DNA of 49,347 bases, taken from assembly GCA_021792455.1 (NCBI GenBank), contig JAJYUP010000011.1, positions 1 to 49,347 of the forward strand, in the 5' to 3' direction. Below are positions 2,154-19,911 of the stretch, piece after piece. The stretch comes from Actinomycetes bacterium. Its GTDB lineage: Bacteria; Actinomycetota; Thermoleophilia; Solirubrobacterales; Solirubrobacteraceae. The notes beneath the pieces were generated by a model that was given only the letters and a program-made list of their open reading frames with translations, did no database searches and had not been told where the DNA came from. Numbering within the stretch: position 1 is the stretch's first letter; the number at the start of each line of letters is the position of its first letter. The position numbers and the translations under genes are program-made.

Positions 2154-3938
2154 TCAGTCGCCGGCAGCAGCGAGCACCGCCGGAGCAGCCTCCTGCTCCC
2201 TCGACGCCTCAGCAGGCTTCGCCGCCGGCACGTAGTGGTAGTTCTTGCCGATCAGCCAGGAGCAGACGGCCGCGACGAGGCTCGCCCCAATAGCGAAGTC
2301 GAGCGCCTCGTGCAGACCTTTGCCGAAGGGGGCGGAGATCAGGTGCGGGAAGAAGGAGCGCCCCGTCAGGTAGGCCGCCTGGGCGTGGCTCAGATGCGAG
2401 AGCGCACCGCTTGCGGAGAGGAGCTGTTCGACTGGGTTGTAGCCGAGGAACGCCGCGAACACGGAGGAGGTCGGCGGCAGGTGCGAGAGCTTGCCCGCCG
2501 CGCTCGCAGGCACGCCATGCGCCGTCAGCCCGTGGTAGAGCGCGCCTGGCAGGCTCGCGGAGAGCCCGACGATTATCAGCGTGAAGAAGATCCCAATCGA
2601 GAGCACCATCGAGGCGTTCATCATCGTCGCCCCCATCCCTGCGCCCTCCCCCCGTTGGCCTGGCGGCAGCGAGTTCATCACCGCCGCCCTGTTCGGCGAG
2701 ATGAAGATTCCCATCGCGAGCCCGTTGATCAGGATCAGCACAGCAAAGAGTGCATAGGGGAAGTTGATAGGCAGCAGCTCGAGCAGCGCGAAGCTCGACG
2801 CGGCGAGCAGCATGCCCCCCGTCGCGAACGGCCTCGCCCCGAAGCGATCGGAGAGGAAGCCTGAGATCGGGCCCGCAAGGAGGAACCCGCCTGTCAGCGG
2901 GAGCATGAAGATGCCTGCCCACAGCGGCGTGTTCGTGAAGCTGTAGCCATGCTGGGGAAGCCAGATCCCCTGCAGCCAGATGATCAGGATGAACATCAGC
3001 CCGCCGCGCCCGAGCGCAGCCATCAGCGTCGCGAAGTTGCCTGCGGAGAACGCCCTTATTTTGAACAGGGAGATGTTGAACATCGGCGCGCTCACCTTCG
3101 TCTCGATCCAGAGGAAGAGCGCGAGGATCGAGATCCCGCCCCCAAGCGCTGCGATCACCCATGGGTTCGTCCAGCCCATCGTCTGCCCACCGTAGGGCTC
3201 GATTCCGTAGACGATCCCGACGAGCAGCACGGTCAGCCCGATCGCAAAGGTCGCGTTGCCGAGCCAGTCGATCTTCGCCGGCGTGCGCACGCCTTTCTCG
3301 CGGAGGTTGATCACTCCCCAGATCGTCCCTATCACCCCGACGGGAACGGAGATGAGGAACACGAGCCGCCAATCGATCGGCCCAAGCACGCCGCCGAGGA
3401 TCAGGCCTATGAATGAGCCCGCCGTCGCAGCGATCATGTTGGTGCCAAGCGCAAGCCCGCGCTGGTGGGGCGGGAAGGCGTCTGTCAGGATCGCCGAGGA
3501 GTTCGCGAACAGAAGCGCGCCGCCGACCCCCTGGAAGACGCGCATGATGATCATGTAGATCGCGGCGGCACTGCCATGCATCCAGACGATCGAGAGCATG
3601 ATCGAGAAGAAGGCAAAGACGCCGAACCCCATGTTGTACATCCGCACGCGCCCGAAGATGTCCCCGAGGCGCCCAAAGCTCACGACGAGCACGGAGGTGA
3701 TGAGCATGTAGCCCATCAGCAGCCACAGGAAGTAGCTCGTGTTGCCTGGCGTCAGCGGATCGAGCTTTATCCCACGGAAGATGTCAGGGAGCGAGATCAG
3801 CACGATCGAGGCGTCGATCGTCGCCATCAGCACGCCAAGGGTCGTGTTCGAGAGCGTCAGCCACTTGCCCTTGTATGGGTCCTCCACCTGCACGGCGCCA
3901 TTGCTTCGTCCGTTGCGCTGAGGCGATGCCTCTCTCAT
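2154..3938 (-). CDS. MFS multidrug exporter, DHA2 (EmrB/QacA) family
   Basis: 594 residues from the ATG at 3938. The frame extends further upstream but overlaps the tetR gene there and loses family character. The protein begins with a short polar stretch, then helix 1 (TLSNTTLGVLMATIDASIVLISLPDI), which carries the D-A-S-I-V motif of 14-helix DHA2 transporters. The motif-A-like SFGRLGDIFGRVRMYN follows (about residues 70-90). About fourteen hydrophobic segments are visible. Members use the proton gradient to expel drugs, dyes or lipids from the inner membrane. It lies 10 bp downstream of a TetR gene, a usual arrangement for an exporter under local repression. The substrate cannot be read from sequence. 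Confidence 0.85.
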   Translation of the reverse strand: MREASPQRNGRSNGAVQVEDPYKGKWLTLSNTTLGVLMATIDASIVLISLPDIFRGIKLDPLTPGNTSYFLWLLMGYMLITSVLVVSFGRLGDIFGRVRMYNMGFGVFAFFSIMLSIVWMHGSAAAIYMIIMRVFQGVGGALLFANSSAILTDAFPPHQRGLALGTNMIAATAGSFIGLILGGVLGPIDWRLVFLISVPVGVIGTIWGVINLREKGVRTPAKIDWLGNATFAIGLTVLLVGIVYGIEPYGGQTMGWTNPWVIAALGGGISILALFLWIETKVSAPMFNISLFKIRAFSAGNFATLMAALGRGGLMFILIIWLQGIWLPQHGYSFTNTPLWAGIFMLPLTGGFLLAGPISGFLSDRFGARPFATGGMLLAASSFALLELLPINFPYALFAVLILINGLAMGIFISPNRAAVMNSLPPGQRGEGAGMGATMMNASMVLSIGIFFTLIIVGLSASLPGALYHGLTAHGVPASAAGKLSHLPPTSSVFAAFLGYNPVEQLLSASGALSHLSHAQAAYLTGRSFFPHLISAPFGKGLHEALDFAIGASLVAAVCSWLIGKNYHYVPAAKPAEASREQEAAPAVLAAAGD

Positions 3939-3948
3939 CTCGCTCACT

Positions 3949-4752
3949 TCAGGCTCCCTTCCGTTTCGACCTCTGAGGCGCTGTCGCATCCGCGCAGGAC
4001 GCTCTCGCATCCGCGCGGGACGGTGACTCACCCACACCGCCTGCGCCCTCAGAGGCACGATCGACTTCGTGGACCCTGCTCCCTCCCCCTTCTCCTCTCC
4101 CCGCCTGCCCGCGCTCTGAGAGCCCAGCGGCAAGGACGTCGAGGTGGCGCTCGACCTCCTCGTGAAGGCTCCCGTCCCCCCCGCGCTCACACCAAGACAG
4201 CATCGCGACCCGGCTCGCCGTCATCGTCGTCGCGACGACGAGCGAGAGGTAGGGCTCATCGGCCGCCCTGCAGCCCGCTCGCCCTGCAAGTGCGGCGACG
4301 AGCTGCCGCTCCGCCTCCGCCCATGCGGAGGCGAAGTGCGCGAGCAGGTGAGGGTCTGAGCGGATGAGCTCGAGGCGGGCGAGCAGCTCGCTGGGGTGGG
4401 CCTCGAAGCCTGAGAGCGACTGCAGCAGGGCAGCTCTCAGTGCGACGGGCGGGCTCTCTGTGCCTGGCCTTCCCGCGAGCAGGCTGACGAGCTCTGAGAG
4501 CGCGTCAGGATCGAGGCCGCTGATCGCGTCCTCCTTCGAGGCGAAGTAGTTGAAGAACGTGCGCGCTGAGACGTCCGCCGCAGCGGCGATGTCCTCAACC
4601 GTCACGCAGGGCAGGCCTCTGCTGCCGACGAGCTCCACCGCTGCGCGTCGCAGCGCCGCGCGCGTCGCGGACTTCTTTCGCTCCCGCAGCGAGGGGACCT
4701 CGAGCGGCGGGGCGCCCTGTGAGCTCGCTGTCAGGATCCTCTGCGTGCTCAA
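3949..4752 (-). CDS. TetR-family transcriptional regulator
   Basis: 267 residues. The N-terminal helix-turn-helix domain is at about residues 25-75: RAALRRAAVELV, then VTVEDIAAAADVSARTFFNYFASKEDAI, the classic TetR recognition helix. The C-terminal ligand domain is family-variable, and the last 50 residues are polar and probably disordered. It immediately precedes the DHA2 exporter gene (10-bp gap) and is likely its repressor and autorepressor. A perfect palindrome near its promoter at 4832-4859 is the best candidate operator. Confidence 0.88.
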   Translation of the reverse strand: MSTQRILTASSQGAPPLEVPSLRERKKSATRAALRRAAVELVGSRGLPCVTVEDIAAAADVSARTFFNYFASKEDAISGLDPDALSELVSLLAGRPGTESPPVALRAALLQSLSGFEAHPSELLARLELIRSDPHLLAHFASAWAEAERQLVAALAGRAGCRAADEPYLSLVVATTMTASRVAMLSWCERGGDGSLHEEVERHLDVLAAGLSERGQAGRGEGGGSRVHEVDRASEGAGGVGESPSRADARASCADATAPQRSKRKGA

Positions 4753-5022: not shown

Positions 5023-5967
5023 TCAGCTCTCCTTCGTGCTCACGTGCTGGAAGCCGAAGCGTCCCTTTATGCAAAGGTTGCCGCGCGTGATGTCGTGGTC
5101 GTCGGGTGAGGTCACCTTCACGATCTCGTTGTCCTGCACGTGCAGGGTGAGGCTGCACCCGACGCCACAGTAGGGACAGACCGTCTCGGTCTCCCTCTGC
5201 CGGGACTCGTCCCAGCTGCCCGCCTGCCGCAGCTCATGCTCGGTGCGGAACATCAGCGCGCCCGTCGGACAGACGGCGATGCAGTTGCCGCAGTAGACGC
5301 ATGCGGACTCCGGCAGAGGGTTCGCGTACTCGGTCGAGATGTGGGCGTCGAAGCCGCGACCTGCGACGGTGATCGCAAAGGTGTTCTGGTACTGCTCGCC
5401 GCAGGCGTCGACGCACTTGTAGCAGAGGATGCACTTCGAGTAGTCGCGCACGTACAGCTCGTTGTCAACCTTGCTCGGCGTCTGCACCGTCGCTGCGGTG
5501 AGCCCGTCAGGGCGCTCGTGGTGGCCGGCACGCCGCCGCTCGCGCTCAGGGTCGGGGAGCGAAGGCGGACCGAAGCGCTCAGGGTGCGCGTCGTAGAGGC
5601 GCGCGTACTCCTTCGCCTCAGGGGTGATCGAGAGGTCGACCGAGGAGGCGAGGAGCTCGATCACCATCTTGCGGCTCAGACGCACGCGCGGCGAGTCGGT
5701 GAGGATCTCCATGTCAGCCTCGACCTGCCGCGAGCAGGCGGGCACGAGCGTACGCGCGCCCTTCAGCTCGACGACGCAGACGCGACAGACGTTCGCGGGC
5801 TTCAGCGTCGGACCGAAGCACAGCGTCGGCGTGTCGATGCCAAGCTTCTCGCAGGCCTGGAGGATCGTCGAGCCCTCCTGCACCTCGACGCTGCGCCCGT
5901 CGACCTTCAGGGTGACCATCCTCGGCGCCGGTTCACCGGATGCACGCAGAGCGTCGGTCACGAGCAC
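5023..5967 (-). CDS. Formate dehydrogenase Fe-S subunit (NuoG-like N-terminal module plus detached Mo-bis-MGD [4Fe-4S] domain)
   Basis: 314 residues from a GTG at 5967, right after the stop of the NuoEF gene and behind a GGTGGAGGGTGA ribosome site. Residues 17-95 form a 2Fe-2S ferredoxin domain (CFGPTLKPANVCRVC...PAC). Then comes a 4Fe-4S ferredoxin pair (CILCYKCVDAC and CVYCGNCIAVCP). Residues about 260-310 carry CPYCGVGCSL...CIKGRFG, the Fe4S4 domain that normally begins the molybdopterin chain. In NAD-linked formate dehydrogenases these modules and the catalytic domain usually form one polypeptide of about 900-990 residues. Here the chain stops exactly at the domain border, and the catalytic part is a separate gene two positions upstream. 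It should relay electrons from the Mo/W site to the diaphorase. Confidence 0.85.
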   Translation of the reverse strand: MLVTDALRASGEPAPRMVTLKVDGRSVEVQEGSTILQACEKLGIDTPTLCFGPTLKPANVCRVCVVELKGARTLVPACSRQVEADMEILTDSPRVRLSRKMVIELLASSVDLSITPEAKEYARLYDAHPERFGPPSLPDPERERRRAGHHERPDGLTAATVQTPSKVDNELYVRDYSKCILCYKCVDACGEQYQNTFAITVAGRGFDAHISTEYANPLPESACVYCGNCIAVCPTGALMFRTEHELRQAGSWDESRQRETETVCPYCGVGCSLTLHVQDNEIVKVTSPDDHDITRGNLCIKGRFGFQHVSTKES

Positions 5968-7920
5968 TCACCCTCCACCCTTGAAGACACCAAGGCGATC
6001 GATCGCCGACTCGATCGCCGCCGAGGCGGTCTGGCCGAGCCCGCAGATCGAGGCGTCGCGCATCGCCTCGCCGATCTCCGCGATGAGCGCGAGCTCGTCC
6101 TCGACGGTTCCGCGAGGGCGACCAGCGCGCAGGCGTGCAAGCGCCTCCTCCTGGCGCACCGTCCCCACCCGGCAGGGCACGCACTGGCCGCAGCTCTCGT
6201 CGCGAAAGAACGCCGCGATCAGCGCGAGCAGCTCGGGGATCTCAGCGGAGTCATCGAGCGCGATCACGACCCCCGAGCCGAGCGTCGCACCGGCCGCACG
6301 CACATCCTCGAAGGTGAGCGGGAGATCGAGCTGGTCGGCTGTGATGAAGCTGCCAGCCGCGCCGCCGAGCAGAACGGCGCGCAGGCCGGTGCCCGCTCGC
6401 ACCCCGCCTGCGAGATCGAGCAGCTGCCGCAGCGAGGTGCCGAAGGGGACCTCATAGACGCCTGGGCGCTCCACAGCACCCGCGAGGCAGAACAGCTTCG
6501 TCCCCGTCGAGCTCTCCGTGCCGATCGCGGCGAAGGCAGTGCCGCCTTCGAGGATGATCGACTGCACGTTCACGAGGGTCTCGACGTTGTTGACAACCGT
6601 GGGCTTGCCGAACAGTCCGCGCTCGACTGGAAACGGGGGCTTGTTGCGCGGCTCGCCGCGGAAGCCTTCGATCGAGCCGAAGATCGCCGTCTCCTCGCCG
6701 CAGATGTACGCGCCCGCCCCCCGCCGCAGCTCGATCTCGAAGTTGAAGCCCGCACCGAGTATGTCCGAACCGAGGAAGCCGCGCTGAGACGCATGCTCGA
6801 TCGCTCTCCCAAGCCGCCTGAAGGCAAGCGGATACTCGCCGCGCAGATAGATCCAGCCCCGCTCGCAGCCTGTCGCGTACGCCGCGATCGTCATCGCCTC
6901 GATCACGGCGAACGGGTCCGACTCGATGATGAGGCGATCCTTGAAGGTGCCGGGCTCGGACTCGTCCGCGTTGCAGATGAGGTAGTGAGGGCGGCGCGGC
7001 TGCCGCGCAACCGTCTCCCACTTGCGCCCCATTGGGAATGCCGCGCCGCCACGGCCGAGCAGCTTGGAGTCGAGCACCTCTCGGATCACCCCTGAAGGGC
7101 CGAGTGAGAACGCCCGCCGCAGCGCCTCATAGCCGCCGTGAGCGCGGTAGTCATCGAGGCTTTCGGGGTCGACGACGCCGACCCTCGCAAGAAGGCGCAG
7201 ACCGTCCTGCCCCGCCTGGGGCGCGCCGCCGCCATCGGGGCGATCCCCGCGCCCCTGCCTTCGATCGCTGCCCCCGTCCTGCCCGGCCTCGTCTCGGTCT
7301 GTGCGCTTCTGCCGCGCCCCAGCCGTTGCCGACCACGGGGGGCGGCGCTCAGGCGCCGCCCCCCCACCCATCAAAGAAAGCAGGTCCTCGACGCCGACAT
7401 CGGTGAGCTCGAGCTCGAGGGGGTTCTCGCCGGAGTCGATCAGCAGCGCCGCCGGCGCCGCGTCGCACTGACCGAGGCAGGGACTCGCAAGCCAGCAGGC
7501 CGAGCCGACATCGGCCCCCTCCTCGCCAACCTGTCGCTGCAGGGCGTCGATCAGCGCATCTGAGCCCGCGAGCCGGCAGACGAGATCGTCGCAGACATGC
7601 ACGACCCGGGGCGGCTGAGGCTCGAGCGAGAGCATCGCGTAGAAGCTCGCGACGCCGTAGACGTCTGCAGGTGGAACGGTAAGCCGCCGCGAGAGATGAT
7701 TCAGCGCGCCAGGGCTGACGAAGCCGATCCGCTGCTGGAGGTGCTGCAGCGCGGGCAGCAGCTTCTGCCGTTCAGCCCTGACAGAGTGCCCCCCATGCGC
7801 GGAGTGACCATCATCGACCCTGTCGGCGCCCACCCATCGCGACATCGGCGGGCCAAGGAAGGCATCAAGCGCATCCCGCTCGCGCTGCGTCGGCTCTGCG
7901 TCGAGCAGGTGGATGTCCAT
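5968..7920 (-). CDS. Formate dehydrogenase beta subunit: fused NuoE-NuoF NADH diaphorase
   Basis: 650 residues from the ATG at 7920, 1 bp after the catalytic subunit stop, with a GGGAGGAGG ribosome site. The N-terminal NuoE-like thioredoxin domain (about 1-170) has CDDLVC and PCLGQC, ligands of a [2Fe-2S] cluster. A polar linker follows. The NuoF part has GRGGAAFPMGRKWE (FMN), GAGAYICGEETAIFGSIEG (NAD site) and ESCGQCVPCRVGT ([4Fe-4S]). The protein passes electrons from the Fe-S subunit through FMN to NAD+. Such NuoE-NuoF fusions are known as beta subunits of soluble NAD-dependent formate dehydrogenases, as in Methylobacterium FDH1. No membrane segment is seen, so it is cytoplasmic. Confidence 0.92.
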   Translation of the reverse strand: MDIHLLDAEPTQRERDALDAFLGPPMSRWVGADRVDDGHSAHGGHSVRAERQKLLPALQHLQQRIGFVSPGALNHLSRRLTVPPADVYGVASFYAMLSLEPQPPRVVHVCDDLVCRLAGSDALIDALQRQVGEEGADVGSACWLASPCLGQCDAAPAALLIDSGENPLELELTDVGVEDLLSLMGGGAAPERRPPWSATAGARQKRTDRDEAGQDGGSDRRQGRGDRPDGGGAPQAGQDGLRLLARVGVVDPESLDDYRAHGGYEALRRAFSLGPSGVIREVLDSKLLGRGGAAFPMGRKWETVARQPRRPHYLICNADESEPGTFKDRLIIESDPFAVIEAMTIAAYATGCERGWIYLRGEYPLAFRRLGRAIEHASQRGFLGSDILGAGFNFEIELRRGAGAYICGEETAIFGSIEGFRGEPRNKPPFPVERGLFGKPTVVNNVETLVNVQSIILEGGTAFAAIGTESSTGTKLFCLAGAVERPGVYEVPFGTSLRQLLDLAGGVRAGTGLRAVLLGGAAGSFITADQLDLPLTFEDVRAAGATLGSGVVIALDDSAEIPELLALIAAFFRDESCGQCVPCRVGTVRQEEALARLRAGRPRGTVEDELALIAEIGEAMRDASICGLGQTASAAIESAIDRLGVFKGGG

Positions 7921-7921
7921 G

Positions 7922-9955
7922 CTAGGCGTGCACCTCCTCCCTACGAGCCCCGCGTGCCTCGCCTGCAGGTCTCCCGTCCGCCGGGCGTGCCTCGCCTGCA
8001 GGTCTCCCGTCCGCCGGGCGTGCCTCGCCTGCGAGGGTCTCCTCCGCCTGAGCCTGAGGCTCTGCCTTCTCGACGCGGATCGCCGTCGCCTTGAACTCCG
8101 CAGTGCCCGACTTCGGGTCGGTCGCGTCGATCGTGAGGGCGTTGACATCGACCTCGTCCGGGAAGTGCAGCGTCATGAACGCGAGACCTGGCCGCAGCCC
8201 TGGGTCGAGACGCACAGGCGCCTCGACAGACCCCCTGCGGGAGATCACCCTCGCGAGCTCTCCAGGCTGCAGGCCAAGCCTCGATGCATCCTCTGGGCAG
8301 AGATCGAGCGTCTCCCCGCGCCGCAGCGGCGAGCTGTAGCGGTTCGACTGCACCCCTGTGTTGTAGGAGTCGAGCCGCCGGCCAGTCGTCAGCCTGATCG
8401 GGAACTGCTCGTCGAGCTCGTCGATCGGCGCGACCCACTCGGTGACGGAGAACGGCGCCCTGCGACCCTCGACGGGGTCCGCCCACAGACGCCCATGCAA
8501 AAACAGCGAGCCTGGGTCATCCTCGCTTTCGCAGGGCCACTGGATCCCACCGAGCGCCTCGAGGCGCGCCCAGCTCATGCCCCTGTGCATAGGGCTGAGC
8601 GAGCGCAGCTCGTCCCAGATCTCTTCCAGAGTGGGTTCACCCCAATCGTGGCCGAGGCGCCGCGCAAGCTCACAGATGATCCAGTGGTCGTCGCGCGCGA
8701 GGCCCGGCGGGTCGAGCGCCTTGCGCAGCAGCTGGACGCGCCGCTCGCTGTTCGTGACAGTGCCGCCATCAGCCTCACACCAGGACGCCGAGGAGGGCAG
8801 CACGACATCGGCGAGCTCGCAGGTCTTCGTCATGAGGATGTCCTGGACGACGAGGAAGTCGAGCCCTTCGAGCAGCTGAAGGGCCTTCGCAGAGTCGGCC
8901 TCCGACTGGGCGGGGTTCTCGCCGAGCACGTAGAGCGTGCGGAGCTCGCCGCGCTCCATCGCCTCGAACATCTGCGAGAGGTGCCAGCCGCGCTCGGCAG
9001 GGAGCTCCACCCCCCACGAAGCTTCGAAGGCGGCGCGCGCGTCGAGATCGTCCTGGACGTCCTGGAAGCCGGGCAGCATGTTCGGGATCGCCCCCATGTC
9101 GCCGCCTCCCTGGACGTTGTTCTGCCCGCGCAGCGGGTTGACGCCAGATCCGAAGCGGCCGACGTGTCCCGTCAAGAGCGCGAGGTTGATGATCGCGAGG
9201 ACGTTGTCGACAGCGGTGACGTGCTCAGTGACGCCAAGCGTCCAGCAGATGATCGCCCGATCGGCGCGGGCGTAGGCGTGAGCGAGCTGCCTGATCGTCT
9301 GCGCCGGGACGCCGGTGACGCGCTGCCCCTCCTGGAGCGTCCAGCGCTCGAGGGAGGAGCGGAACGCCTCGAACCCGTCCGTCGCGCGGCGGATGAAGGT
9401 CTCGTTGCAGAGCCCGGCATCGATGATCTCGCGGGCGATCGTGTTCGCAAGGGCGATGTCAGTGCCGACGTCGAGCCCAAGCCAGCCATCCGCCCACTGC
9501 GCTGAGCTCGTGCGGCGCGGATCGACGACGTAGAGCTGCGCGCCGCGATGCACGGCCTTCAGCACGTGGTGGAAGAAGATCGGATGTGTCTCGCGCGCGT
9601 TCGACCCCCAGAGGATCAGCAGATCCGTCTCCTCCACCTCTCTATAGGACGACGTCCCGCCGCCCGCACCGAACACCGTCGCCAGACCGACGACGCTTGG
9701 AGCGTGTCAGGTGCGGTTGCAGGAGTCGATGTTGTTCGACCCCATCACCGCGCGCACGAACTTCTGCGCAAGGAAGTTCACCTCATTCGATGCCTTGGAG
9801 CAGCTGAACATCCCGAACGACCGCGTCGTGTCTGCCGCGCGCGCTGAGGACAGCCCTGCCGCCGCGACCTCGAGCGCCTCATCCCAGCTGGCGGGAACGA
9901 GCACACCGCCCCGCCGGACGAGCGGCTCGGTGAGCCGGCCGCGAAACCTCTTCAT
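7922..9955 (-). CDS. fdhF: Formate dehydrogenase catalytic subunit, selenocysteine-containing, lacking the N-terminal Fe4S4 domain
   Basis: 677 residues from the ATG at 9955 (AAGGTGG upstream) to TAG at 7922, reading the in-frame TGA at 9709-9707 as selenocysteine 83. Around it the protein reads NNIDSCNRT-U-HAPSVVGL, the formate dehydrogenase active site, where Sec or Cys ligates Mo/W and the next His is catalytic. Downstream come the molybdopterin domains (WGSNARETHP, GVTEHV, NPLRGQNNVQGGGDMG) and the C-terminal dinucleotide-binding domain. The chain begins at FRGRLTEPLVRRGG, so the usual N-terminal [4Fe-4S] domain is missing; it is encoded at 5023-5967. A 33-bp repeat (11 residues, GEARPADGRPA) sits near the C-terminus. 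A SECIS hairpin follows the TGA and a full Sec cassette lies nearby, so this is not a pseudogene. Confidence 0.93.
9677..9709 (-). promoter_or_regulatory. Bacterial SECIS element and UGA(Sec) codon of fdhF
   Basis: After the TGA (9709-9707) come 11 bases and then CGTCGTC (9695-9689), loop GGTCT (9688-9684) and GGCGACG (9683-9677). That makes a 7-bp stem with one G-U pair. The GGUCU apical loop and the distance from UGA match the E. coli fdhF SECIS bound by SelB. Confidence 0.85.
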
Positions 9956-10199: not shown

Positions 10200-11777
10200 T
10201 CAGCGCGCAAGGCGGTAGCCGACGAGCGACCTCGTCCCGCGTGGCGGTGAGCTCAGCAGCTCGAGCTGCAGGATCGAGCGGTGCGGGAGCACGAGCACCC
10301 GGGGAACGAGCTCTGGCCCCTGCGCCACACCGGCGACCATCTCGCTGTGGTGCTCTGGGTGGGGGTGCAGCGTCAGGAACTCCGCGGAGGGACCCTCCTC
10401 GAGCGCCTGAAGGAAGAACTGCTCGCCGTCGAGCAGCGTCACGCGCACGAACGCCTGCCGAGATCCACGGGCCTCCGCGAAGCTGCGCACCTGCGCGTTG
10501 AAGCGCTGCACCCACCCTTCCTGCTCCCCCTGCTCCCTCTCCCCCTGCGCCTGCGCCTGCGCCTGCGCAGCGATGCTGGGGGCGGCACGGCCCGCTCGCG
10601 CTCGCTCGATCGTGACTGGCAGGCGGGCGGCATCAGACTCATCAGAGACTCCCTGCGCGCGTCGGGGGGCGGCCTCAGCCTCACCAGGACCAGCTGCTCG
10701 CCGCTCTTGGTAGGCGAGAACCTCTTTGCAGGTGAGAATGCCGTGCTCGGCGGTCAGCTCGTCGATCAGCGGCCACAGCTCTGCGAGCTTCTCGCCGCGG
10801 TCGATGCAGATCGTGCAGCTTGGCAGGTGGCTTGACAGGCGGCCAAAGCGGTCGCCATGGGCGGGCTCATCGCTCGAGAAGCCCCACTCGCCGAACAGCG
10901 TCGTCGCGCCCGCGCCTCCAAGCTGCCGCAGCTGCCGCGTCAGCTCGCTGTAGAGGGCGTGGCCGCCCACGCGCGCTGAGCGGCGGGTGTAGAGGGAGAG
11001 CATCTGCCAGCCCCCATCGCGCGCCTCCCCCTCACCGCGGCCCTCAGCGTGGCCCTCAGCGTGGCCCTCACCGCGGCCCTCAGCGTCCGGGCGAGGCATG
11101 CCCCCAAGCAGCGCGCCATCGTGCTTGAGCTGCTCGATCGGCTCCAGCGTGATGATCGGGTGCTGCAGGCGGGCGCTCAGGGCGCCCAGCGCCGCGCGCA
11201 GATCGGCGCGCGGCCCGATCGCCTCGATCGCCATCGGGGTGCTTGCGCTCGTCGAGAACAGGCGCGCCTCCCGCCGACGCGAATGGAGCATGCCGTCGAT
11301 GCCGAGAAAGGCGATCGCACCTGGCGCTCCGTAGCGCCGCAGAAGCTCGATCACCACGCGAAATGCGGGCTGCCCTCCGGATCGCTCCGCTCGGCCGCAG
11401 TAGACGGTGAGCTTGCCGGCGCTGCCTGGACCCTCAGGGAACTGCGCGCCGGCGACCTCCTCGCCGCTCGCGAGGTGGGTTGCCTCGAGCGTCACGAGTC
11501 CCTTCTCGATCAGCGCGTCGAGGTCAGGCAGCAGCGCCTCGATCTGCGATCGCTCTCCAAGCGCGATCAGCAGCAGCGGCAGGTCGGTCGAGACATCTGG
11601 GAAGCGCTCTGCGTGGATCCGTTTGTGCGCGCCGAACCCCTCCGCTCCGCGCAGGAGCACCGCGACGGGGATCTCCCGCTGCGCTAGCAGCCGCATCAGG
11701 GCGCCGCTTGCGAGCTCGCCGCCGGCGGTCAGCTCCTCGCCGAAGAAGACCGACAGCTTCAGCGCCTCGGCGATCAT
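10200..11777 (-). CDS. Protein with three DUF190 domains, partner of CrcB
   Basis: 525 residues from the ATG at 11777, overlapping the crcB stop by 4 bp. DUF190 proteins are small PII-like (ferredoxin-fold) proteins often encoded next to CrcB fluoride channels. Three units are visible. Unit 1 (about 1-105) begins LKLSVFFGEEL and contains the AHKRIHAERF segment. Unit 2 (about 125-225) begins KLTVYCGRAER with GAPGAIAFLGIDG. Unit 3 (about 260-360) has YTRRSARVGGHALYSELTRQLRQLGGAGAT. Units are joined by Glu/Gly/His-rich low-complexity linkers. The last 100 residues (VRSFAEARGSRQAFVRV onward) form a further domain I do not recognise. It may sense or gate fluoride export; no biochemical role is established. 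Most relatives have one such domain. Confidence 0.75.
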   Translation of the reverse strand: MIAEALKLSVFFGEELTAGGELASGALMRLLAQREIPVAVLLRGAEGFGAHKRIHAERFPDVSTDLPLLLIALGERSQIEALLPDLDALIEKGLVTLEATHLASGEEVAGAQFPEGPGSAGKLTVYCGRAERSGGQPAFRVVIELLRRYGAPGAIAFLGIDGMLHSRRREARLFSTSASTPMAIEAIGPRADLRAALGALSARLQHPIITLEPIEQLKHDGALLGGMPRPDAEGRGEGHAEGHAEGRGEGEARDGGWQMLSLYTRRSARVGGHALYSELTRQLRQLGGAGATTLFGEWGFSSDEPAHGDRFGRLSSHLPSCTICIDRGEKLAELWPLIDELTAEHGILTCKEVLAYQERRAAGPGEAEAAPRRAQGVSDESDAARLPVTIERARAGRAAPSIAAQAQAQAQGEREQGEQEGWVQRFNAQVRSFAEARGSRQAFVRVTLLDGEQFFLQALEEGPSAEFLTLHPHPEHHSEMVAGVAQGPELVPRVLVLPHRSILQLELLSSPPRGTRSLVGYRLAR

Positions 11778-12142
11778 GCCGCCAGTTCGCCGAGCAGCCA
11801 GCCGAGTGCCGCGAACCCCAGCCCGGCGACCATAGACCCGAACAGGTAGGCGTAGAGCAGAGTCTGCTCGCCGTCTTCGGCGAGACGCTGAGACTCGACC
11901 ATCCACGTCGAGAAGGTCGTGTAGCCGCCGAGAAATCCTGTTCCGATCACGAGCATCAGATTGCTGCTCAGAGACAGCCCTGTCAGCAGGCCGAGAACGA
12001 AGCAGCCCGTCAGGTTGACGACAAACGTGCCGGCTGGAAAGGCTCCTGGGCGCCGCGCGGTGACCACGGCGCCGAGGAAGAAGCGCGACAGCGCGCCAAG
12101 CGCGCCGAAGAGCCCGACCCCGAGCCACACGAGCACGGTCAT
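11774..12142 (-). CDS. crcB: CrcB/Fluc fluoride channel subunit (second of a pair)
   Basis: 122 residues from the ATG at 12142, which overlaps the preceding crcB stop (ATGA). Four hydrophobic helices are visible. GALGALSRFFLG in helix 1, GTFVVNLTGCFVLG in helix 2 and GFLGGYTTFSTWMVE in helix 3 are the Fluc signatures; the Asn of helix 2 and the TTFST segment line the fluoride pores. Fluc channels are dual-topology dimers that let toxic cytoplasmic F- leave the cell. Two adjacent, non-identical crcB genes usually form an obligate heterodimer. Downstream, the DUF190 gene overlaps by 4 bp, so the three genes are translationally coupled. Confidence 0.9.
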   Translation of the reverse strand: MTVLVWLGVGLFGALGALSRFFLGAVVTARRPGAFPAGTFVVNLTGCFVLGLLTGLSLSSNLMLVIGTGFLGGYTTFSTWMVESQRLAEDGEQTLLYAYLFGSMVAGLGFAALGWLLGELAA

Positions 12143-12660: not shown

Positions 12661-12951
12661 TCACGGCCTCGGCAACCGCCGCAGCGTCGGGGTCAGCGGC
12701 AGGACTGGCGTGCGCTTGCGCACGCCAGTCCGTGGCAACGAGGTGACCACGTCCGGGTCGGTCCGGGTCTTCTCCTCGTGGTCAAGCGCAGCTGCCAGCG
12801 CACGGGGAACAGACTTCAGCATCGGCGCGGAGAATACGCGAGTGCTCTGCCCGCTGCAGACAGGGCAGGCGATCCTCTGCGGAGCGCTGCCGAGCGGCAG
12901 GGTGACATCGAAGCGCCCGTCCTGCTCGCACCGGTACTCATACGTGGTCAT
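12661..12951 (-). CDS. FmdB-family zinc-ribbon protein
   Basis: 96 residues starting MTTYEYRCEQDGRFDV, the typical opening of FmdB proteins, with a CPVC pair (about residues 29-32) that forms a zinc ribbon with C8. Homologues beside formamidase genes were named as possible regulators of fmdA expression; proof of DNA binding is lacking. It lies 18 bp downstream of fmdA and is surely cotranscribed. The C-terminal 45 residues are variable and basic. That part contains a perfect 14-bp-arm inverted repeat in DNA at 12702-12731, so its coding sequence may be constrained by RNA structure rather than by protein function. Confidence 0.8.
   Translation of the reverse strand: MTTYEYRCEQDGRFDVTLPLGSAPQRIACPVCSGQSTRVFSAPMLKSVPRALAAALDHEEKTRTDPDVVTSLPRTGVRKRTPVLPLTPTLRRLPRP
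12702..12731 (-). repeat. Perfect inverted repeat inside the fmdB 3' end
   Basis: GGACTGGCGTGCGC (12702-12715), TT, then its exact complement (12718-12731). In RNA this is a 14-bp stem between the fmd genes and crcB, within coding sequence. It could attenuate transcription or stabilise the upstream message; unproven. Confidence 0.6.
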
Positions 12952-12969: not shown

Positions 12970-14223
12970 TCAGTTGGCCGAACGCGGGACCTGCAGGCCC
13001 TGCTTCACCTGATGCGGCGCGCCGGCACTCGGGCTGACATCGAAGTCGAAGATCCGCGTCGGGATGTAGACGGTCGCGCATGAGTTCGGGATGTCGACGA
13101 CCCCGGAGAACCGGCCCTCGATCGGAGCCGAGCCGAGGATCATGTACGCCTGGATGTCGGTGTAGCCGAACTTCATCAGGTAGTCGATGGCGTGGTGGCA
13201 GGCGCGCTCGTAGGACAGCTGCGAGTTGAGGTAGTGCTGCTTGCCGCTGAAGTCGACCGACACGCCTGAGAACGCGATCCATTCGCTGTACTGAGGATCG
13301 CGCAGGCCAGGCATGAATATCGCGTTCTCAGAGACGCCGAACGTTTCCATGCCGCCCTTGATGAGATCGACGTGCAGGTCCATGAACCCGCCCATCTCGA
13401 TCGCGCCGCAGAACGTGATCTCACCGTCGCCCTGGGAGAAGTGCAGATCTCCGAAGGAGAGGTTCGCCCCATCCACGAACACGGGGTAGAACACACGGGT
13501 GCCAGCCGTGAAGTTCTTGATGTCCTGGTTGCCCCCGTTCTCGCGCGGCGGCGCCGTACGCGCAGCCTCCCTCGCGACGCGGTCGAACTCCGCACCCTGC
13601 AGGCTGCCGAGGATCGCGCTTTCCGGCAGCGGAGGCAGAGCGAGCGGCGGCACCCTGTTCGGGTCCGTGGCGATCAGGTCCGTCTCGCGCTTCGTCCACT
13701 TCGCAAGCAGCTCCGCAGAGGGAGCAGTGCCCATCAGACCGGGGTGGTGGATCCCGACATACGAGCACTCCGGGATGTGGCGCGAGGTGGCAACGTCACC
13801 GGTGAAGTCCCAGATCACCTTGTAGGCGTCGGGGAAGCGCTCGGTGAGAAAGCCACCGCCGTTCGACGTTGCGAACACTCCAGTGTAGCCCCAGCCCATC
13901 CCGGAGAAGTCGCCCTCGTCCTCCTGGTCGCAGGCGTCGATCTCGAGGATGTCGACGACGAGCAGATCGCCCGGTTTCGCTCCCTCGACGCGGAACGGGC
14001 CCGTGAGGACGTGTACGCCCGGCAGCGGCGCGTTGCGCACATCATCGGCGGAGTCGTCGTTCTTGATCGCGCCGTCGAACCACTCGCGGCAGTCCGCACG
14101 GAACACGTCTCCAGGTTTCACGCTGACAGCGGGTGGAATGTCCGGGTGCCACCGGTTGTGCCCCACGTGCAGCTGGTCGGTGAACTTTTTCGTGTTGTCC
14201 AGCGGCCACAGGTTCTTTGGCAT
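12970..14223 (-). CDS. fmdA: Formamidase FmdA (acetamidase/formamidase family)
   Basis: 417 residues, close to the usual 405-415. The ATG at 14223 follows AGGGAG with 6-bp spacing and is preferred over a TTG two codons earlier that sits on the ribosome site. The opening PKNLWPLDNTKKFTDQLHVGHNRWHPDIPP and the segments GPFRVEGAKPGDLLVVDIL, GIHHPGLMGTAPS, FSQGDGEITFCGAIEMGG and PNSCATVYIPTRIFDFD are family hallmarks. FmdA is a cytoplasmic zinc amidase that hydrolyses formamide to formate and ammonia. Its neighbours fit: an AmiS/UreI amide channel upstream, an FmdB protein downstream, and a formate dehydrogenase at the end of the same strand to oxidise the formate. Activity on other short amides is possible. 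Confidence 0.93.
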   Translation of the reverse strand: MPKNLWPLDNTKKFTDQLHVGHNRWHPDIPPAVSVKPGDVFRADCREWFDGAIKNDDSADDVRNAPLPGVHVLTGPFRVEGAKPGDLLVVDILEIDACDQEDEGDFSGMGWGYTGVFATSNGGGFLTERFPDAYKVIWDFTGDVATSRHIPECSYVGIHHPGLMGTAPSAELLAKWTKRETDLIATDPNRVPPLALPPLPESAILGSLQGAEFDRVAREAARTAPPRENGGNQDIKNFTAGTRVFYPVFVDGANLSFGDLHFSQGDGEITFCGAIEMGGFMDLHVDLIKGGMETFGVSENAIFMPGLRDPQYSEWIAFSGVSVDFSGKQHYLNSQLSYERACHHAIDYLMKFGYTDIQAYMILGSAPIEGRFSGVVDIPNSCATVYIPTRIFDFDVSPSAGAPHQVKQGLQVPRSAN

Positions 14224-14292
14224 ATCCAACTCCCTTCGTTTTGGCGATTGTCAGCCGAGCCCCACCGGGCTCGGGGCACTGCACGATCTGTG

Positions 14293-14408: not shown

Positions 14409-15101
14409 CTAATACGCGCCCGCGGAAGCGGAGGCGGAAGCAGAAGCGGACGCGGGCGCCCCCACGCCGAGCGAGGGCCGCAGCAGCGCCCAGAAGCCCA
14501 CGAACGTCGCGACGGAGACGGCGGCGATCGCGATCCAGAACGTCTTCGTGATGCCTGAGGGTATGTTCAGCAGGAACAGCGCCGGGACGAGACCGGTGTA
14601 GATCCCCTGCGCGGCGCACCACGCCCCGGTGAACTTCGTGAAGCCTTCCTTGCCGAGGCTCAGCACAACCCAGAACAGGAACCACAGCACCGCCCAACTG
14701 CCCCACAGGACGCCAAGCAGGTCGCCTTCCGCGTTTTTGTTGTGCGCAGCGGCCGCGACGGGGCCGAGCGCGCCCGAGTGGGTGAAGTTCCAAACGGAGT
14801 ATGTGACGGCGGCAAACACGACGAACAGGCAGAACCAGCCCAGCCCCGTCGGGTCGTAGTTGAACTGGTTGGTCATCGCCACATACAGATAGGTGAATCC
14901 AAACAGGAACAGGCCCGAGGCGCCGACGATCTGCGCCTGGTTGCCATTAGCGCTGATGATCAGATACAGCGGCGTTGCAACCTGCAGAAGGCCGACGAAC
15001 AGGTCCATCGGAACCAGCGACTTGCCCTTCACCCATCCGACCAGAGACAGGCCGTTCACGAACAGAACCGCGCCCACGTAGAGAAGCCCAACTGCACCCA
15101 T
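14409..15101 (-). CDS. AmiS/UreI-family amide or urea channel
   Basis: 230 residues starting MGAVGLLYVGAVLFVNGLSLVGWV, typical of AmiS/UreI proteins, with six to seven hydrophobic helices in the inner membrane. FLFGFTYLYVAMTNQFNYDPTGLGWFCLFVV and WGSWAVLWFLFWVVLSLG are the conserved channel segments with aromatic pore residues. GAGGTG lies upstream of the ATG. Family members conduct urea (UreI) or short aliphatic amides (AmiS of the amidase operon). Because the next gene on the strand is formamidase, formamide import is the likely job. The extreme C-terminus is an Ala-Ser repeat (low complexity). It is the first gene behind a strong promoter at 15389-15417. Confidence 0.9.
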   Translation of the reverse strand: MGAVGLLYVGAVLFVNGLSLVGWVKGKSLVPMDLFVGLLQVATPLYLIISANGNQAQIVGASGLFLFGFTYLYVAMTNQFNYDPTGLGWFCLFVVFAAVTYSVWNFTHSGALGPVAAAAHNKNAEGDLLGVLWGSWAVLWFLFWVVLSLGKEGFTKFTGAWCAAQGIYTGLVPALFLLNIPSGITKTFWIAIAAVSVATFVGFWALLRPSLGVGAPASASASASASAGAY

Positions 15102-15571: not shown

Positions 15572-17020
15572 TCAAGGGCTGCAGATGCGGGCAAGCACCT
15601 CTACGGCGAGCCCCACCTCATCCTCGAGCAGCGTGCGTGGGTCGATCAGAACCTGCCCGTCGCAGATGCGGGCAAGGAGCGCCGGCTCGCCGCTGCGCAG
15701 AGATCTCGCCAGCGCCTGCGCATCGCCGCAGGGGTCTGTGAGCGCGACGGCCGGCCCGCAGAGCTCGAGCAGAGGGAGCGCCCCGCCGCCGACCTTCGCG
15801 ACAGACTCGACCACGTTGCCCCCGGACGCCTGCGCGAGCAGCTGCGCCCGCGCCCGCAGCACATCGACGCCGCAGGAGAGCATCGACAGCACGGGCACCT
15901 CCTCGATCGCCCGCTCAGGGTCGCGATAGATCGCGAGCGTAGCCGCCAGCCCAGCGAGGGGCAGACGCCCTATCCGCATCGCGCGCGCAAGCGGATGACG
16001 CCTGCAGGCGGCGACCGCCTCGGCCGTCCCGACGAGGATGCCGGCCTGGGGTCCCCCAAGCAGCTTGTCGCCGCTGAAGCAGGCGAGCTGCACGCCTGCG
16101 CGCACAGAGCGGGAGACTGACGGCTCCTGCGCGAGCATCTCAGCCACCTGCGCGAGCGCGCGCGCCCCATCGTCCCCACACCTCGCCGTCTCCGCGATCA
16201 TCATCCCAGAGCCGAGGTCGTCGATCACGGGCACCCCGAGCGTGCACAGCTGCTCGATGGAGACATCCTCCACGAAGCCGACCGTGCGGAAGTTCGACTG
16301 ATGCACGCGCAGGATCGCACCTGCCCCACGCGCAAGCGCCTGTTCATAGTCCTCGAGCCGGGTGCGGTTCGTCGTACCGACCTCGATCAGAGGCACTCCC
16401 GCCTGGGCGAGCACATCAGGCACGCGGAATCCGCCTCCGATCTCGACGAGCTGGCCCCGCGAGACGGCGATCCCGCACTCATCTCCGAGCGCTGCGATCG
16501 CAAGCAGTGCAGCCGCCGCGCCGTTGTTGACGACGAGCGCATCAGCGGCCCCCGTCAGCTCGCAGAGGATCCCCTTCACGTGGACATCCCGCGATCCTCG
16601 CCTGCCCGAGGCGAGATCGATCTCGAGGTTCGAGTACCCCCGCGCCGCCTCATCGACCGCCTCGATCGCAGCGGGGGCAAGCGGGGCGCGGCCGAGGTTC
16701 GTGTGAACGATCACCCCTGTCGCGTTCAGCACACGGCGCAGCGTCGGCCGCAGCAGCTCACACGCCTCGGCAGCGAGGTCGCGCTCGTCGGCTGCGCCTG
16801 CAAGCAGCTGCGCTCGGCGCTGCGCAAGCACACGCCTCGCGACGGCGACTGCCTCCGCACGCGTCAGCTCGCGGCGAGCACCCGCACGTTCGGCAACCTC
16901 CTCGGCGAGCCTGTCGACGGCTGGCAGCGCGCGAAGCCGAGCCTGCACGCTCACGCTCGCCGCGCCCTCGCGCGCCTCCTCGCGGGCGCCCCCCCTGGAG
17001 CTCACCTCATCCCCGCTCAC
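15572..17020 (-). CDS. selA: L-seryl-tRNA(Sec) selenium transferase SelA
   Basis: 482 residues from a GTG at 17020, overlapping the selB stop (GTGA). SelA is a PLP enzyme that converts seryl-tRNA(Sec) to selenocysteyl-tRNA(Sec) using selenophosphate. The lysine that holds PLP is in CFSGDKLLGGPQAG (about residue 295). Other family blocks are LRRVLNATGVIVHTNLGRAPL, YSNLEIDLASGRRGSR, VVNNGAAAALL and GGGFRVPDVL. Length and domain order (N-terminal helical domain, then aminotransferase fold) are normal. The gene ends the selD-selC-selB-selA cassette, all on one strand. Confidence 0.97.
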   Translation of the reverse strand: MSGDEVSSRGGAREEAREGAASVSVQARLRALPAVDRLAEEVAERAGARRELTRAEAVAVARRVLAQRRAQLLAGAADERDLAAEACELLRPTLRRVLNATGVIVHTNLGRAPLAPAAIEAVDEAARGYSNLEIDLASGRRGSRDVHVKGILCELTGAADALVVNNGAAAALLAIAALGDECGIAVSRGQLVEIGGGFRVPDVLAQAGVPLIEVGTTNRTRLEDYEQALARGAGAILRVHQSNFRTVGFVEDVSIEQLCTLGVPVIDDLGSGMMIAETARCGDDGARALAQVAEMLAQEPSVSRSVRAGVQLACFSGDKLLGGPQAGILVGTAEAVAACRRHPLARAMRIGRLPLAGLAATLAIYRDPERAIEEVPVLSMLSCGVDVLRARAQLLAQASGGNVVESVAKVGGGALPLLELCGPAVALTDPCGDAQALARSLRSGEPALLARICDGQVLIDPRTLLEDEVGLAVEVLARICSP

Positions 17021-18615
17021 TGGCGGAAGGCCTCAGATCGATGTGCGAGCACCCTAGTGTCGTCTGGAAGACGTCTCGTCACGCGCTCCGCGTCGAGATG
17101 CTCGAGGAACGCCTGGGATGCCTTCCGCGAGATGCCAAGCGCATCGCGCACGCCGGCGAGTCCCGTGGGGCCCTGAGCGGCGAGCAGCTCCGTGATCTCA
17201 GCGCGCACGCGGGCGAGCACATCGGCGTGCGCATACAGACGGCCGCTCACCCTCACGGCGCGTCCTTGCCCTCGCAGCACCGCAAGCGCGGCCCGCCGAT
17301 CCTCCATCTGCGCCTCAGAGAGCATCTGAGGACCGGCATCGAGCAGACGCTGCTCCAGCTCTCCGAGCTCCTCCTCAGCGACGGACGCGCTTCTGACACC
17401 TGCCGTCGCTCTCGCTGCCGTCGCTCGCGGCGGCACACCAGGCTCTGTCGAAGGCGGCTCGCCAGGCTGTGTCGATGGCGGCAGCGCGTGACCTTCGCGC
17501 AGGCTTCGCAGACGAGCGCAGATCTCCGGGCGCGCGCCATGGCGGGCAGCCACAGCGTCGAGAACGCACCCTCCCCCAAGCGTGTCCGGAGGGGCGAGCC
17601 GCCTCACGACGAGGCGATCGCCGTCTAGGGCGAGCAGCGGCCGCTCGAGCCGCAGCTGCCACAGGCCGCTCGCGCGATCGAGCACGCACAGCCTGCCTGT
17701 CACGGCGCGCGTGCCGTGGTGCACCTGGACGCGCTCGCCATGCCTGCCACCGTCGAGCTCGAGCGCGCAGTCCAGGATCTTCGTCTCTGCGCCAAGACCA
17801 GAGGCGACCAGGACATCGCCGCGCCCTGCCTCTGCGGCCCTCACGCCAACGAGGTTGACGGCTACGCGCTGGCCGGCGGCGGCGCGCTCGAGGTGCCGGT
17901 CGTGGACCTCCACCCCCCTCACGCGCACACGCCGTCGGCCTCCCGCCGAGCAGGCCAGCTCGAGCGTCTCGCCGACGCCGATCTCGCCGGACCACAGCGT
18001 GCCGGTGATGACAGCACCCCGGCCCGCGACGGTGAAGGAGCGGTCGACGTGCAGACGAACGGCCGCCGCCTGCCCAGACGCTCGGCTTGGAAGACCGCTC
18101 ACGAGGTCGTCGAGGGCCGAGCGCAGCACGTCCAGGCCATCGCCGCTGCGAGCGGAGCAGGCGACGACAGGGCACCCAGGCAAAAGCCTCGCCGCCTGCT
18201 GCGCGGCAGAATCGGGGTCCGCGAGGTCCGCCTTGCTGATTGCGATCACTCCCCGCTCGATCCCAAGCGCGCGCAGGACCTTCGCATGCTCGATCGTCTG
18301 AGGCATCACGCCGTCATCGGCGGCGATCACCATCAGGAACGCGTCGACACCGCTCGCCCCTGCGACCATCGTGCGCACGAAGCGCTCGTGCCCAGGCACG
18401 TCGATGACTGAGATCTTGCGGCCAGATGGCAGCGTCAGCGGCGCATAGCCGAGAACGATCGTCAGCCCGCGCGCCCGCTCCTCTGGCAGACGGTCGGTGT
18501 CGACCCCCGTCAGGGCCCGCACGAGCGCGGTCTTTCCGTGGTCGACATGTCCGGCCGTGCCAATCGTCAGCGGCCCGGCCGTGCCGACCGTCAGCGGCCC
18601 AGCCGTCGCGCTCAT
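17017..18615 (-). CDS. selB: Selenocysteine-specific elongation factor SelB
   Basis: 532 residues. SelB delivers Sec-tRNA to UGA codons followed by a SECIS hairpin. The GTPase domain shows [14 protein letters not shown] (P-loop), DVPGHERFV (G3) and SKADL (G4). Beta-barrel domains II and III follow. C-terminal winged helices (about residues 405-530, ending [23 protein letters not shown]) bind the SECIS. It is somewhat shorter than E. coli SelB (614), probably with fewer or shorter winged helices. The N-terminus carries a 24-bp repeat at DNA level giving GPLTVGTA and GPLTIGTA just before the P-loop, so part of the first 16 residues is a recent duplication. tRNA-Sec lies 34 bp upstream and selA overlaps downstream. 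Confidence 0.96.
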
Positions 18616-18649: not shown

Positions 18650-18741
18650 CGGAGCGACGAAGGAGTCGAACCTTCCCGGCGCGCGATGCGCGCCGCCGAC
18701 GGCTTTGAAGGCCGTTCGGGGCACCGGCCCCGGGCCGCTCC
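18650..18741 (-). tRNA. selC: tRNA-Sec (anticodon TCA), selC
   Basis: 92 nt on the minus strand. An 8-bp acceptor stem (GGAGCGGC with GTCGCTCC, one G-U pair) plus a 5-bp T stem (GAAGG/CCTTC around TTCGACT) gives the 13-bp stack typical of bacterial tRNA-Sec. The anticodon arm ACGGC-CTTCAAA-GCCGT carries TCA. The extra arm is long, with a stem of GGCGCG/CGCGCC. Discriminator G; CCA is not encoded. It sits between selD and selB, as expected for a Sec cassette. Confidence 0.96.
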
Positions 18742-18777: not shown

Positions 18778-19830
18778 CTAGCGCACTTCGATCGTCCCAG
18801 GCTCGCCCTCGATCAGGCGGCCGACCACCACCGCGGCTGGAACTGCCGCGTCCGCAGGCACAGCCGCAAGAAGGCCGCCAGAGGTCGTCGCGTCGGTGAG
18901 AAGGCGGCGCCGCCATGCGGGAACGCCGTCGCCGAAGGTGGCGAAGCCTTCAGCCCAGGCAGCGTTGCGACGGCTGCCGCCGGAGACCACCCGCTCGTCG
19001 CAGAGAAGATCCTGCACACCGGTGAGCGCGGGCACGGCGGATGCCTCAACGACGGCTGAGAGCCCGCTCTCACGGCAGAGATGATGCAGATGCCCGAGAA
19101 GCCCGAACCCCGTCACGTCGGTCATCGCGTGGGCTCCCGCCTGCAGCGCAGAGGATGCGGCGAAGTCGTTCAGCTGCACCATCGTCGCGACAGCGTCGGC
19201 GAGAAGCTTCTCGTCGGCCAAGCCGCGCTTGCGGGCGGCTGCGATCGCACCCACGCCAAGCGGCTTCGAGAGCGTGAGCAGGTCGCCTGGCTGCCCGCCG
19301 GCGTTCGTGATCATCTGCCTCGGATCGACGACCCCCGTCACGGCGAGCCCATACTTCGGCTCGGCATCCTCGATCGAATGGCCGCCGACGATCACCGCGC
19401 CCGCCCCGGTGACGACGTCGAGCCCCCCGCGCAGCACGCACGCGAGCACCTCTGGACCCAGCTGCTCGAGCGGGAAAGCGACGATGTTCAGCGCGGTGAG
19501 GGGCCTGCCGCCCATCGCGTAGACATCTGAGAGCGCGTTTGCGGCCGCGATCCGGCCGAAGTCGTAGGGGTCGTCTACGAGCGGGGTGAAGAAGTCCACC
19601 GTCTGCACGAGCGCGAGATCCTCCCTGAGCATGAACACCGCGGCGTCGTCACTGCTCGCTGAGCCCACGAGCAGACGCTCGTCGCGCTGGACCGGAAGCT
19701 GCGCGACGATCGGCAGCAGCTGGGCCGCGGGAAGCTTGCATCCGCAGCCGGCCCCCGCCGCGAGCGAGGTCAGCGACGGCGCGCTTTGATCGGGCTCCCT
19801 CGAGCTCGAGAGGATGGTCGATGCAGCCAT
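18778..19830 (-). CDS. selD: Selenide, water dikinase SelD
   Basis: 350 residues from the ATG at 19830; a TTG three codons upstream is possible but less likely. SelD makes selenophosphate, the selenium donor for SelA, from selenide and ATP. The glycine-rich active-site segment [10 protein letters not shown] (about residues 26-35) carries Cys and Lys; some SelD proteins have Sec in place of this Cys, this one does not. ATP and metal-binding parts are visible: [58 protein letters not shown] and [11 protein letters not shown]. It is the first gene of the Sec cassette, 36 bp upstream of tRNA-Sec. Confidence 0.96.
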
Positions 19831-19911
19831 CGCGAGCAATGCTAGCGGCAGCTGTGCCGCCTGCTTCAGGACCTTCGTTCGCTGCTCAGGAAAGACGCCG
19901 AGCGGGATCGC

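Follow-up and report, generated by a model that had tools for sequence, protein, structure and literature searches.

A probable three-chain selenocysteine formate dehydrogenase with its Fe4S4 domain relocated to a NuoG-like chain

The window, i.e., the whole stretch of 49,347 nucleotides analysed here (contig JAJYUP010000011.1 of an Actinomycetes bacterium), encodes what is very probably an NAD-linked, three-chain selenocysteine formate dehydrogenase (FDH) of class I, whose proximal [4Fe-4S] cluster would be supplied in trans by a NuoG-like chain. The Fe4S4 domain is absent from the catalytic chain and closes the NuoG-like chain. This relocation was confirmed and is conserved in relatives; the enzyme is ordinary in its chemistry and unusual in its build. 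The three genes form an almost gapless series on the minus strand, in the order catalytic (9955-7922), NuoE-NuoF fusion (7920-5968), and NuoG-like (5967-5023), with the following features.

7922..9955, minus strand: catalytic subunit (677 aa) of a Mo/W-bis-pyranopterin guanine dinucleotide (bisPGD) formate dehydrogenase, predicted selenoprotein, without an Fe4S4 domain (Pfam, TIGR01591, structure match)
5968..7920, minus strand: NuoE-NuoF fusion (650 aa) with [2Fe-2S], flavin mononucleotide (FMN)/NAD site, and [4Fe-4S] (Pfam)
5023..5967, minus strand: NuoG-like electron-transfer subunit (314 aa) with the relocated Fe4S4 domain at its C-terminus (Pfam, TIGR01591)
5041..5193, minus strand: Molybdop_Fe4S4 domain, residues 259-309 of the NuoG-like chain (C264, C267, C271, C299, K301) (Pfam)
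9707..9709, minus strand: in-frame TGA read as a selenocysteine (Sec) codon, U83 (CNRT-U-HAPSV, metal-ligand position), TGA in 100 of 117 relatives
9677..9695, minus strand: candidate selenocysteine insertion sequence (SECIS) hairpin downstream of the TGA, 7 bp, loop GGUCU (covariation)

Domain content and proposed electron path

Pfam recovered only Molybdopterin (residues 7-432, PF00384, 229.2 bits) and Molydop_binding (521-624, PF01568, 92 bits) in the catalytic chain of the window, and the Molybdop_Fe4S4 domain sought there was not found. That domain was detected in the NuoG-like chain (259-309), together with Fer2_4 (16-92) and a 4Fe-4S dicluster domain (178-237). The fusion chain matched PF01257, PF01512, and PF10589, which are the NuoE and NuoF modules with their FMN/NAD and Fe-S sites. 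TIGR01591 (Fdh-alpha, 672 positions) was divided between the two chains in a complementary manner: the catalytic chain covered positions 52-672 (633.9 bits), and residues 262-313 of the Fe-S chain covered positions 1-52 (53.5 bits). These results confirmed a preliminary description of the locus, in which the domain lacking from the catalytic gene was placed at the end of a separate NuoG-like gene. That description had also allowed for an Fe4S4 region directly upstream of 9955; the open reading frame there (10210-9707) contained no CxxC motif, and no hidden Fe4S4 region was present in the window. The N-terminal Fe4S4 domain of class I Mo/W-bisPGD FDHs is thus missing from the catalytic chain and present at the C-terminus of its partner, and the alpha chain typical of Fds and FDH1, with NuoG-like, Fe4S4, and molybdopterin (Mo) domains fused, is represented by two genes separated by the EF gene. 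Neither half reached the TIGR01591 cut-off (666.25 bits), which may explain why the enzyme was missed in annotation. The C-terminus of the catalytic chain (window 7922-8020) was a Gly/Ala/Arg-rich tandem repeat with a predicted local distance difference test (pLDDT) score of about 30, and most of its listed relatives were shorter (620-657 aa counted from the aligned start).

The residues C79-N80-R81-T82-U/C83-H84 and R276-G277-Q278 were invariant in 42 of 42 aligned catalytic chains. As U83 H84 and R276 G277 Q278 correspond to the signature 'C/UH RGQ' given for class I FDHs in the consulted text of PMC8808070, the chain fits that class definition. In the mechanism that we infer, including the assembly and docking of the chains, the electron path, its direction, and the metal, the catalytic chain would bind the bisPGD metal (Mo or W) through U83, with H84 and R276, and oxidise formate. 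The first electron acceptor would be the proximal [4Fe-4S] cluster in the C-terminal domain of the NuoG-like chain, and this domain would dock on the catalytic chain at the place occupied in FDH-H by its own N-terminal domain. In FDH-H, the lysine matching K301 is located between the cluster and the pterin. Electrons would next travel through two further [4Fe-4S] clusters and one [2Fe-2S] cluster of the NuoG-like chain, and then reach the NuoE-NuoF chain with its [4Fe-4S], FMN, and NAD site. NuoG and FdsA have an extra, His-liganded cluster that lies off the direct electron path; its motif was found in none of the 88 split chains and in 8 of the 18 other chains examined, including two unfused ones, L183 and L184.

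The single-chain model of the catalytic subunit (pLDDT 81.8) matched FDH1 and FDH-H at TMq 0.83-0.87, and the first structure matches of the Fe-S chain were Rhodobacter FDH alpha chains. The catalytic chain is very improbably another bisPGD enzyme, such as a nitrate reductase: other models of the superfamily also matched it, at lower scores, the next model giving 386.8 bits (its own cut-off being 1100) vs 633.9 for TIGR01591, and the class I active-site residues, an FdhD encoded elsewhere in the genome, and a formamidase neighbour all speak for formate. Three points weigh against our identification. The catalytic chain scored below the TIGR01591 cut-off (633.9 vs 666.25 bits), which may be due to the 51 missing positions. 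The structure models are of single chains only, and that of the Fe-S chain is weak (mean pLDDT 68.2). Finally, formate removal by Actinomycetospora chiangmaiensis, whose FDH3 is compared below, is described in the accessible text of PMC7176365 as selenium-dependent, which, like the detection of all three FDH3 chains, speaks for the identification; the organism also has two membrane-bound Sec FDHs, however, so that the selenium effect is no proof for FDH3 alone.

Conservation of the split and selenocysteine signals

The database search for relatives with a stand-alone Fe-S/Fe4S4 chain that the preliminary description had proposed was performed with the NuoG-like chain against one genome per species (84,980 species). 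At least 543 relatives were found, of which 80 with 60-80% identity in the best segment were kept; fused FDH or NuoG chains may be among the other 463. The split arrangement was present in the 80 kept loci, which were distributed over several phyla (Actinomycetota 42, Acidobacteriota 15, Planctomycetota 6, Chloroflexota 5, Gemmatimonadota 3, Vulcanimicrobiota 2, Pseudomonadota 2, Rokuibacteriota 1, Spirochaetota 1, Thermomicrobiota 1, and unplaced 2). These ten phyla were taken from record titles, many of them of metagenome assemblies, and the titles may be wrong. The split-type relatives also comprised isolates, e.g., Saccharopolyspora hirsuta, Amycolatopsis azurea, and Comamonas badia.

A set of 88 loci was formed by the window, the 80 kept loci, and L200-L206. 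The strand order reported for the window (catalytic, NuoEF, Fe-S) held throughout: all 75 loci showing the five modules had the order catalytic, E, F, NuoG-like, Fe4S4, whereas all fused alphas opened with neighbouring E/F modules are placed after E/F (seven other loci gave no E/F match). The remaining 13 loci were incomplete, comprising the unlinked L062, L082, whose first bases hold part of a catalytic gene, and eleven near a contig end, where no more than 501 nt (ten loci) or 2 kb (L051) lies between that end and the first module. The cluster motif CxxCxxxC...CxKG was kept in 88 of 88 Fe-S chains, which stop 9-54 residues (median 13) past CxKG, and the ligands C264, C267, C271, and C299 as well as K301 were invariant in the 50 chains aligned. 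In 81 of the 83 loci showing both, NuoE and NuoF were read in one uninterrupted frame.

Catalytic chains were obtained from 116 of 137 loci searched (117 chains; 21 loci had no qualifying match), and none was preceded by an Fe4S4 motif in any frame within up to 600 nt, although less than 600 nt was available for some and two reach the locus end before an in-frame stop. Among 396 sampled Actinomycetota genomes, up to 40, including that of the window, hold the catalytic chain (E <1e-250; identity 62-74% when the window is set aside); this is a count by match score, not every one of the 40 loci having been opened. Another nine genomes have a chain of family f23 with 51-55% identity, and this chain has Fe4S4 on the same polypeptide. 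In the plasmid collection, 150 records matched the Fe-S protein, all below 60% identity, and the five opened (H1, H3, H28, H33, and H39) were fused alphas.

The genome of the window consists of 242 contigs and is 83% complete, which would leave room for an assembly or annotation artefact. We consider the chance of this negligible and rejected a sequencing rearrangement, as the identical arrangement occurs in independent records, including isolates, which excludes chance or assembly error, and as the Fe-S chains end soon after CxKG in all kept loci.

The two units are not always adjacent. In Halopolyspora algeriensis (L062), no catalytic match was found within 4 kb on the upstream side or 1.3 kb on the downstream side of the EF/Fe-S module; a catalytic gene (66% identical, with TGA) lies at G700:C20:24948-26831 on the minus strand, opposite to the EF/Fe-S module, and would be about 12.5 kb away if C20, judged by its number, is the same contig. 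In the actinobacterial loci L058, L059, L069, L073, and L075, about 2 kb separates the catalytic gene from EF, and two opposite-strand genes precede EF in L058 and in the truncated L051. Such unlinked or interrupted arrangements make a single polypeptide impossible. The earlier proposal that the Fe4S4 domain acts in trans is supported, as the domain lies on another chain and the two units are unlinked in Halopolyspora.

Actinoallomurus iriomotensis (L052) has two tandem catalytic genes (132-2039 and 2155-4053), of which one is of the Sec type and the other of the Cys type, followed by one EF-Fe-S set. With the proximal cluster retained on the diaphorase side, a single NuoEF/NuoG-like-Fe4S4 module could serve exchangeable catalytic chains, e.g., Sec and Cys isozymes according to selenium supply. 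The Actinoallomurus gene pair and the unlinked units of Halopolyspora suggest this reading, in which the catalytic chain has become a plug-in part through the relocation; we regard it as speculative and rather unlikely.

By its signals (in-frame UGA, covarying SECIS, and selA, selB, selC, and selD nearby), the catalytic chain is a selenoprotein. At the position of U83, the 117 catalytic chains have TGA (100), Cys (16), or lack the search motif (1). For the SECIS, 69 Sec genes (the window and 68 of 74 found) were aligned, with pairs at columns 15-21/27-33. Paired cells amounted to 95.7%, and 25 cells were double-changed vs 6.3 in shuffles, none of 500 shuffles being as high. One pair switches to G-C from C-G in 14 of 66 distinct rows, and the GGUCUG loop also occurs in E. 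coli fdhF (L222). Against the hairpin, the single-sequence fold of this region in the window was no stabler than shuffles (z 0.08) and an Rfam search of the region gave no match; the hairpin is thus called from covariation only. Sec genes (-14.5) and Cys genes (-16.2) were not distinguished by their mean folding energy over nt 9-48. An in-frame TGA at the Sec position was also observed in L176 (G228), a NuoG-fused FDH of the same class, and Sec is therefore not limited to the split type. The genes for selenocysteine insertion are as follows.

18650..18741, minus strand: tRNA-Sec (selC; RF01852, 66.6 bits)
15572..17020, minus strand: selA, selenocysteine synthase (PF03841)
17017..18615, minus strand: selB, Sec-specific elongation factor (PF25461 and PF09107)
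18778..19839, minus strand: probable selD, selenophosphate synthase, named from its family (AIRS, PF00586 and PF02769) and place

Origin of the two-chain arrangement

A tree of the Mo domain was built from 57 rows by a quick search with one support value, the outgroups being Actinomycetota and plasmids only. The 28 split chains formed one group (support 100, starred), with six f23 chains of the FDH-H type (Fe4S4-Mo) as sister (100, starred), followed by E. coli FDH-H (88). In an approximately unbiased (AU) test of 42 rows, forcing the split chains together with the nearest NuoG-fused chains (L176, L179, and L189) cost 87 log units (p-AU 3.4e-6). Judged by this tree and test, the catalytic core is FDH-H-like and is not the cut-off half of the sampled NuoG-fused enzymes. 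The Fe4S4-domain tree (50 columns) placed the split chains with the f23 FDH-H-type chains at a support of 92.5, not starred, with p values of 0.23 to 0.69 for the alternatives, and in the NuoG-like tree the split clade sat on a long branch without a clear sister.

The arrangement could have arisen by complementary loss, an FDH-H-type chain losing its Fe4S4 domain and a NuoG/FdsA-type subunit losing its Mo domain to give a hybrid enzyme. The Mo-domain tree and the AU test agree with this, as do the best PDB matches of the two halves, namely FdhF of the hydrogen-dependent carbon dioxide reductase (HDCR) for the Mo half (493.1 bits) and an FDH alpha of the NuoG-fused type for the Fe-S half (163.8 bits). 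The 50-column Fe4S4 tree, however, does not decide the matter, and the close end-to-end fit of the two chains would then be a coincidence. We hold such an origin to be a serious possibility, falling a little short of probable. That fit would be expected if the alpha gene of a NuoG-fused FDH had undergone fission, the permuted order coming about when an EF-alpha operon was duplicated in tandem and the outer halves of the pair were lost. Fused alphas with E/F beside them do come after E/F, and tandem operons exist, L188 carrying two complete E-F-alpha FDH module sets in one genome. Fission is made rather doubtful by the catalytic chain being sister to FDH-H-type Fe4S4-Mo chains (100, starred) and not to the NuoG-fused group, and by the rejection of a clade with L176, L179, and L189 (p-AU 3.4e-6); this test covered the sampled fused chains only, and a fused ancestor with an FDH-H-like core may lie outside the sample. 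The enzyme had been called both cut and permuted in the preliminary description: as a statement on gene order compared with fused enzymes, this holds, but as a history it is doubtful in view of the same sister relationship and AU test.

Neighbouring genes and comparison with known systems

The following genes were located between the FDH and sel genes.

12970..14229, minus strand: formamidase/acetamidase (PF03069, 560.6 bits)
12661..12951, minus strand: zinc-ribbon protein adjoining the formamidase (PF09723), which we take to be FmdB-like by name
14409..15101, minus strand: AmiS/UreI family transporter (PF02293)

As a formamidase and an amide transporter are nearby, formamide is a plausible source of formate for the FDH. 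A protein with three DUF190 stretches beside two CrcB-family genes was observed at 10200-12651. In Halopolyspora (L062), a thiamine-diphosphate enzyme is encoded at 751-2487 on the opposite strand upstream of the EF-Fe-S module; its best NCBIfam matches were acetolactate synthase and 2-hydroxyacyl-CoA lyase, both below cut-off. Lyases of that kind can give formyl-CoA, according to the consulted text of PMC7176365.

In most bisPGD enzymes, the catalytic chain has a [4Fe-4S] cluster at its N-terminus, which some relatives have lost (PMC10100899, consulted in extracts). In the split clade, with titles from ten phyla, the cluster is kept but moved to another chain. If docking occurs as proposed, nature would here provide a case in which a metal site and its first electron acceptor can be taken apart and combined anew, something that fused enzymes rule out. 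Literature searches in open PMC papers found nothing recognised as describing Fe4S4 transfer, and the consulted portions of PMC13397495 (a 2026 review), PMC10100899, and PMC8808070 mention no such split.

The NuoEFG-like electron path to NAD is shared with FdsABGD of Rhodobacter capsulatus (6tg9) and C. necator (PMC13397495, in the part available). FdsABGD differs in its fused alpha, Cys instead of Sec, separate E and F chains, and the extra FdsD. The locus L223 of Methylobacterium has a coding sequence of 1719 nt at the NuoE-NuoF place and the order EF, alpha. NuoE and NuoF also form one chain in FDH1 of Methylorubrum extorquens. FDH1 (PDB 7vw6, 8j83) resembles the window's enzyme in the fold of its catalytic and Fe-S parts, but its alpha is a single chain with the NuoG-like part, Fe4S4, and Mo domains. 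The nearest catalytic cores are those of FDH-H (E. coli FdhF) and the actinobacterial f23 FdhF chains (L191-L199; 49-52% identity for f23), with an in-frame TGA at the matching place in L191, L196, and L222. These carry Fe4S4 at their own N-terminus, and the stretch fetched around the f23 chains gave no NuoE, NuoF, or NuoG-like match. In L182, L183, L184, and L190 (E-F-U and Fe4S4-Mo operons in genomes of the taxonomic order to which the window belongs), the NuoG-like and catalytic parts are likewise separate genes, but the cut lies one domain earlier and Fe4S4 is kept on the catalytic chain.

The closest known system is the cytoplasmic FDH3 (FdhA3/FdhB3/FdhC3; FdhA3 WP_084681743, FdhC3 WP_018332444) of A. 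chiangmaiensis, described in 2020 and called NAD-dependent (PMC7176365, here and below as far as the accessible text goes). All three chains were detected there, 2.2 to 3.1 fold up on 2-hydroxyisobutyrate vs acetone. An Fe4S4 domain on FdhC3 is not mentioned in that text. FDH3 has three chains of 640, 614, and 316 aa (677, 650, and 314 in the window) with Sec in the alpha, whose 640 residues would hardly accommodate both Mo and Fe4S4 domains. The earlier statement that no FDH with this split had been described was therefore not borne out: judged by sizes and composition, not by sequence, FDH3 is very likely the same enzyme type.

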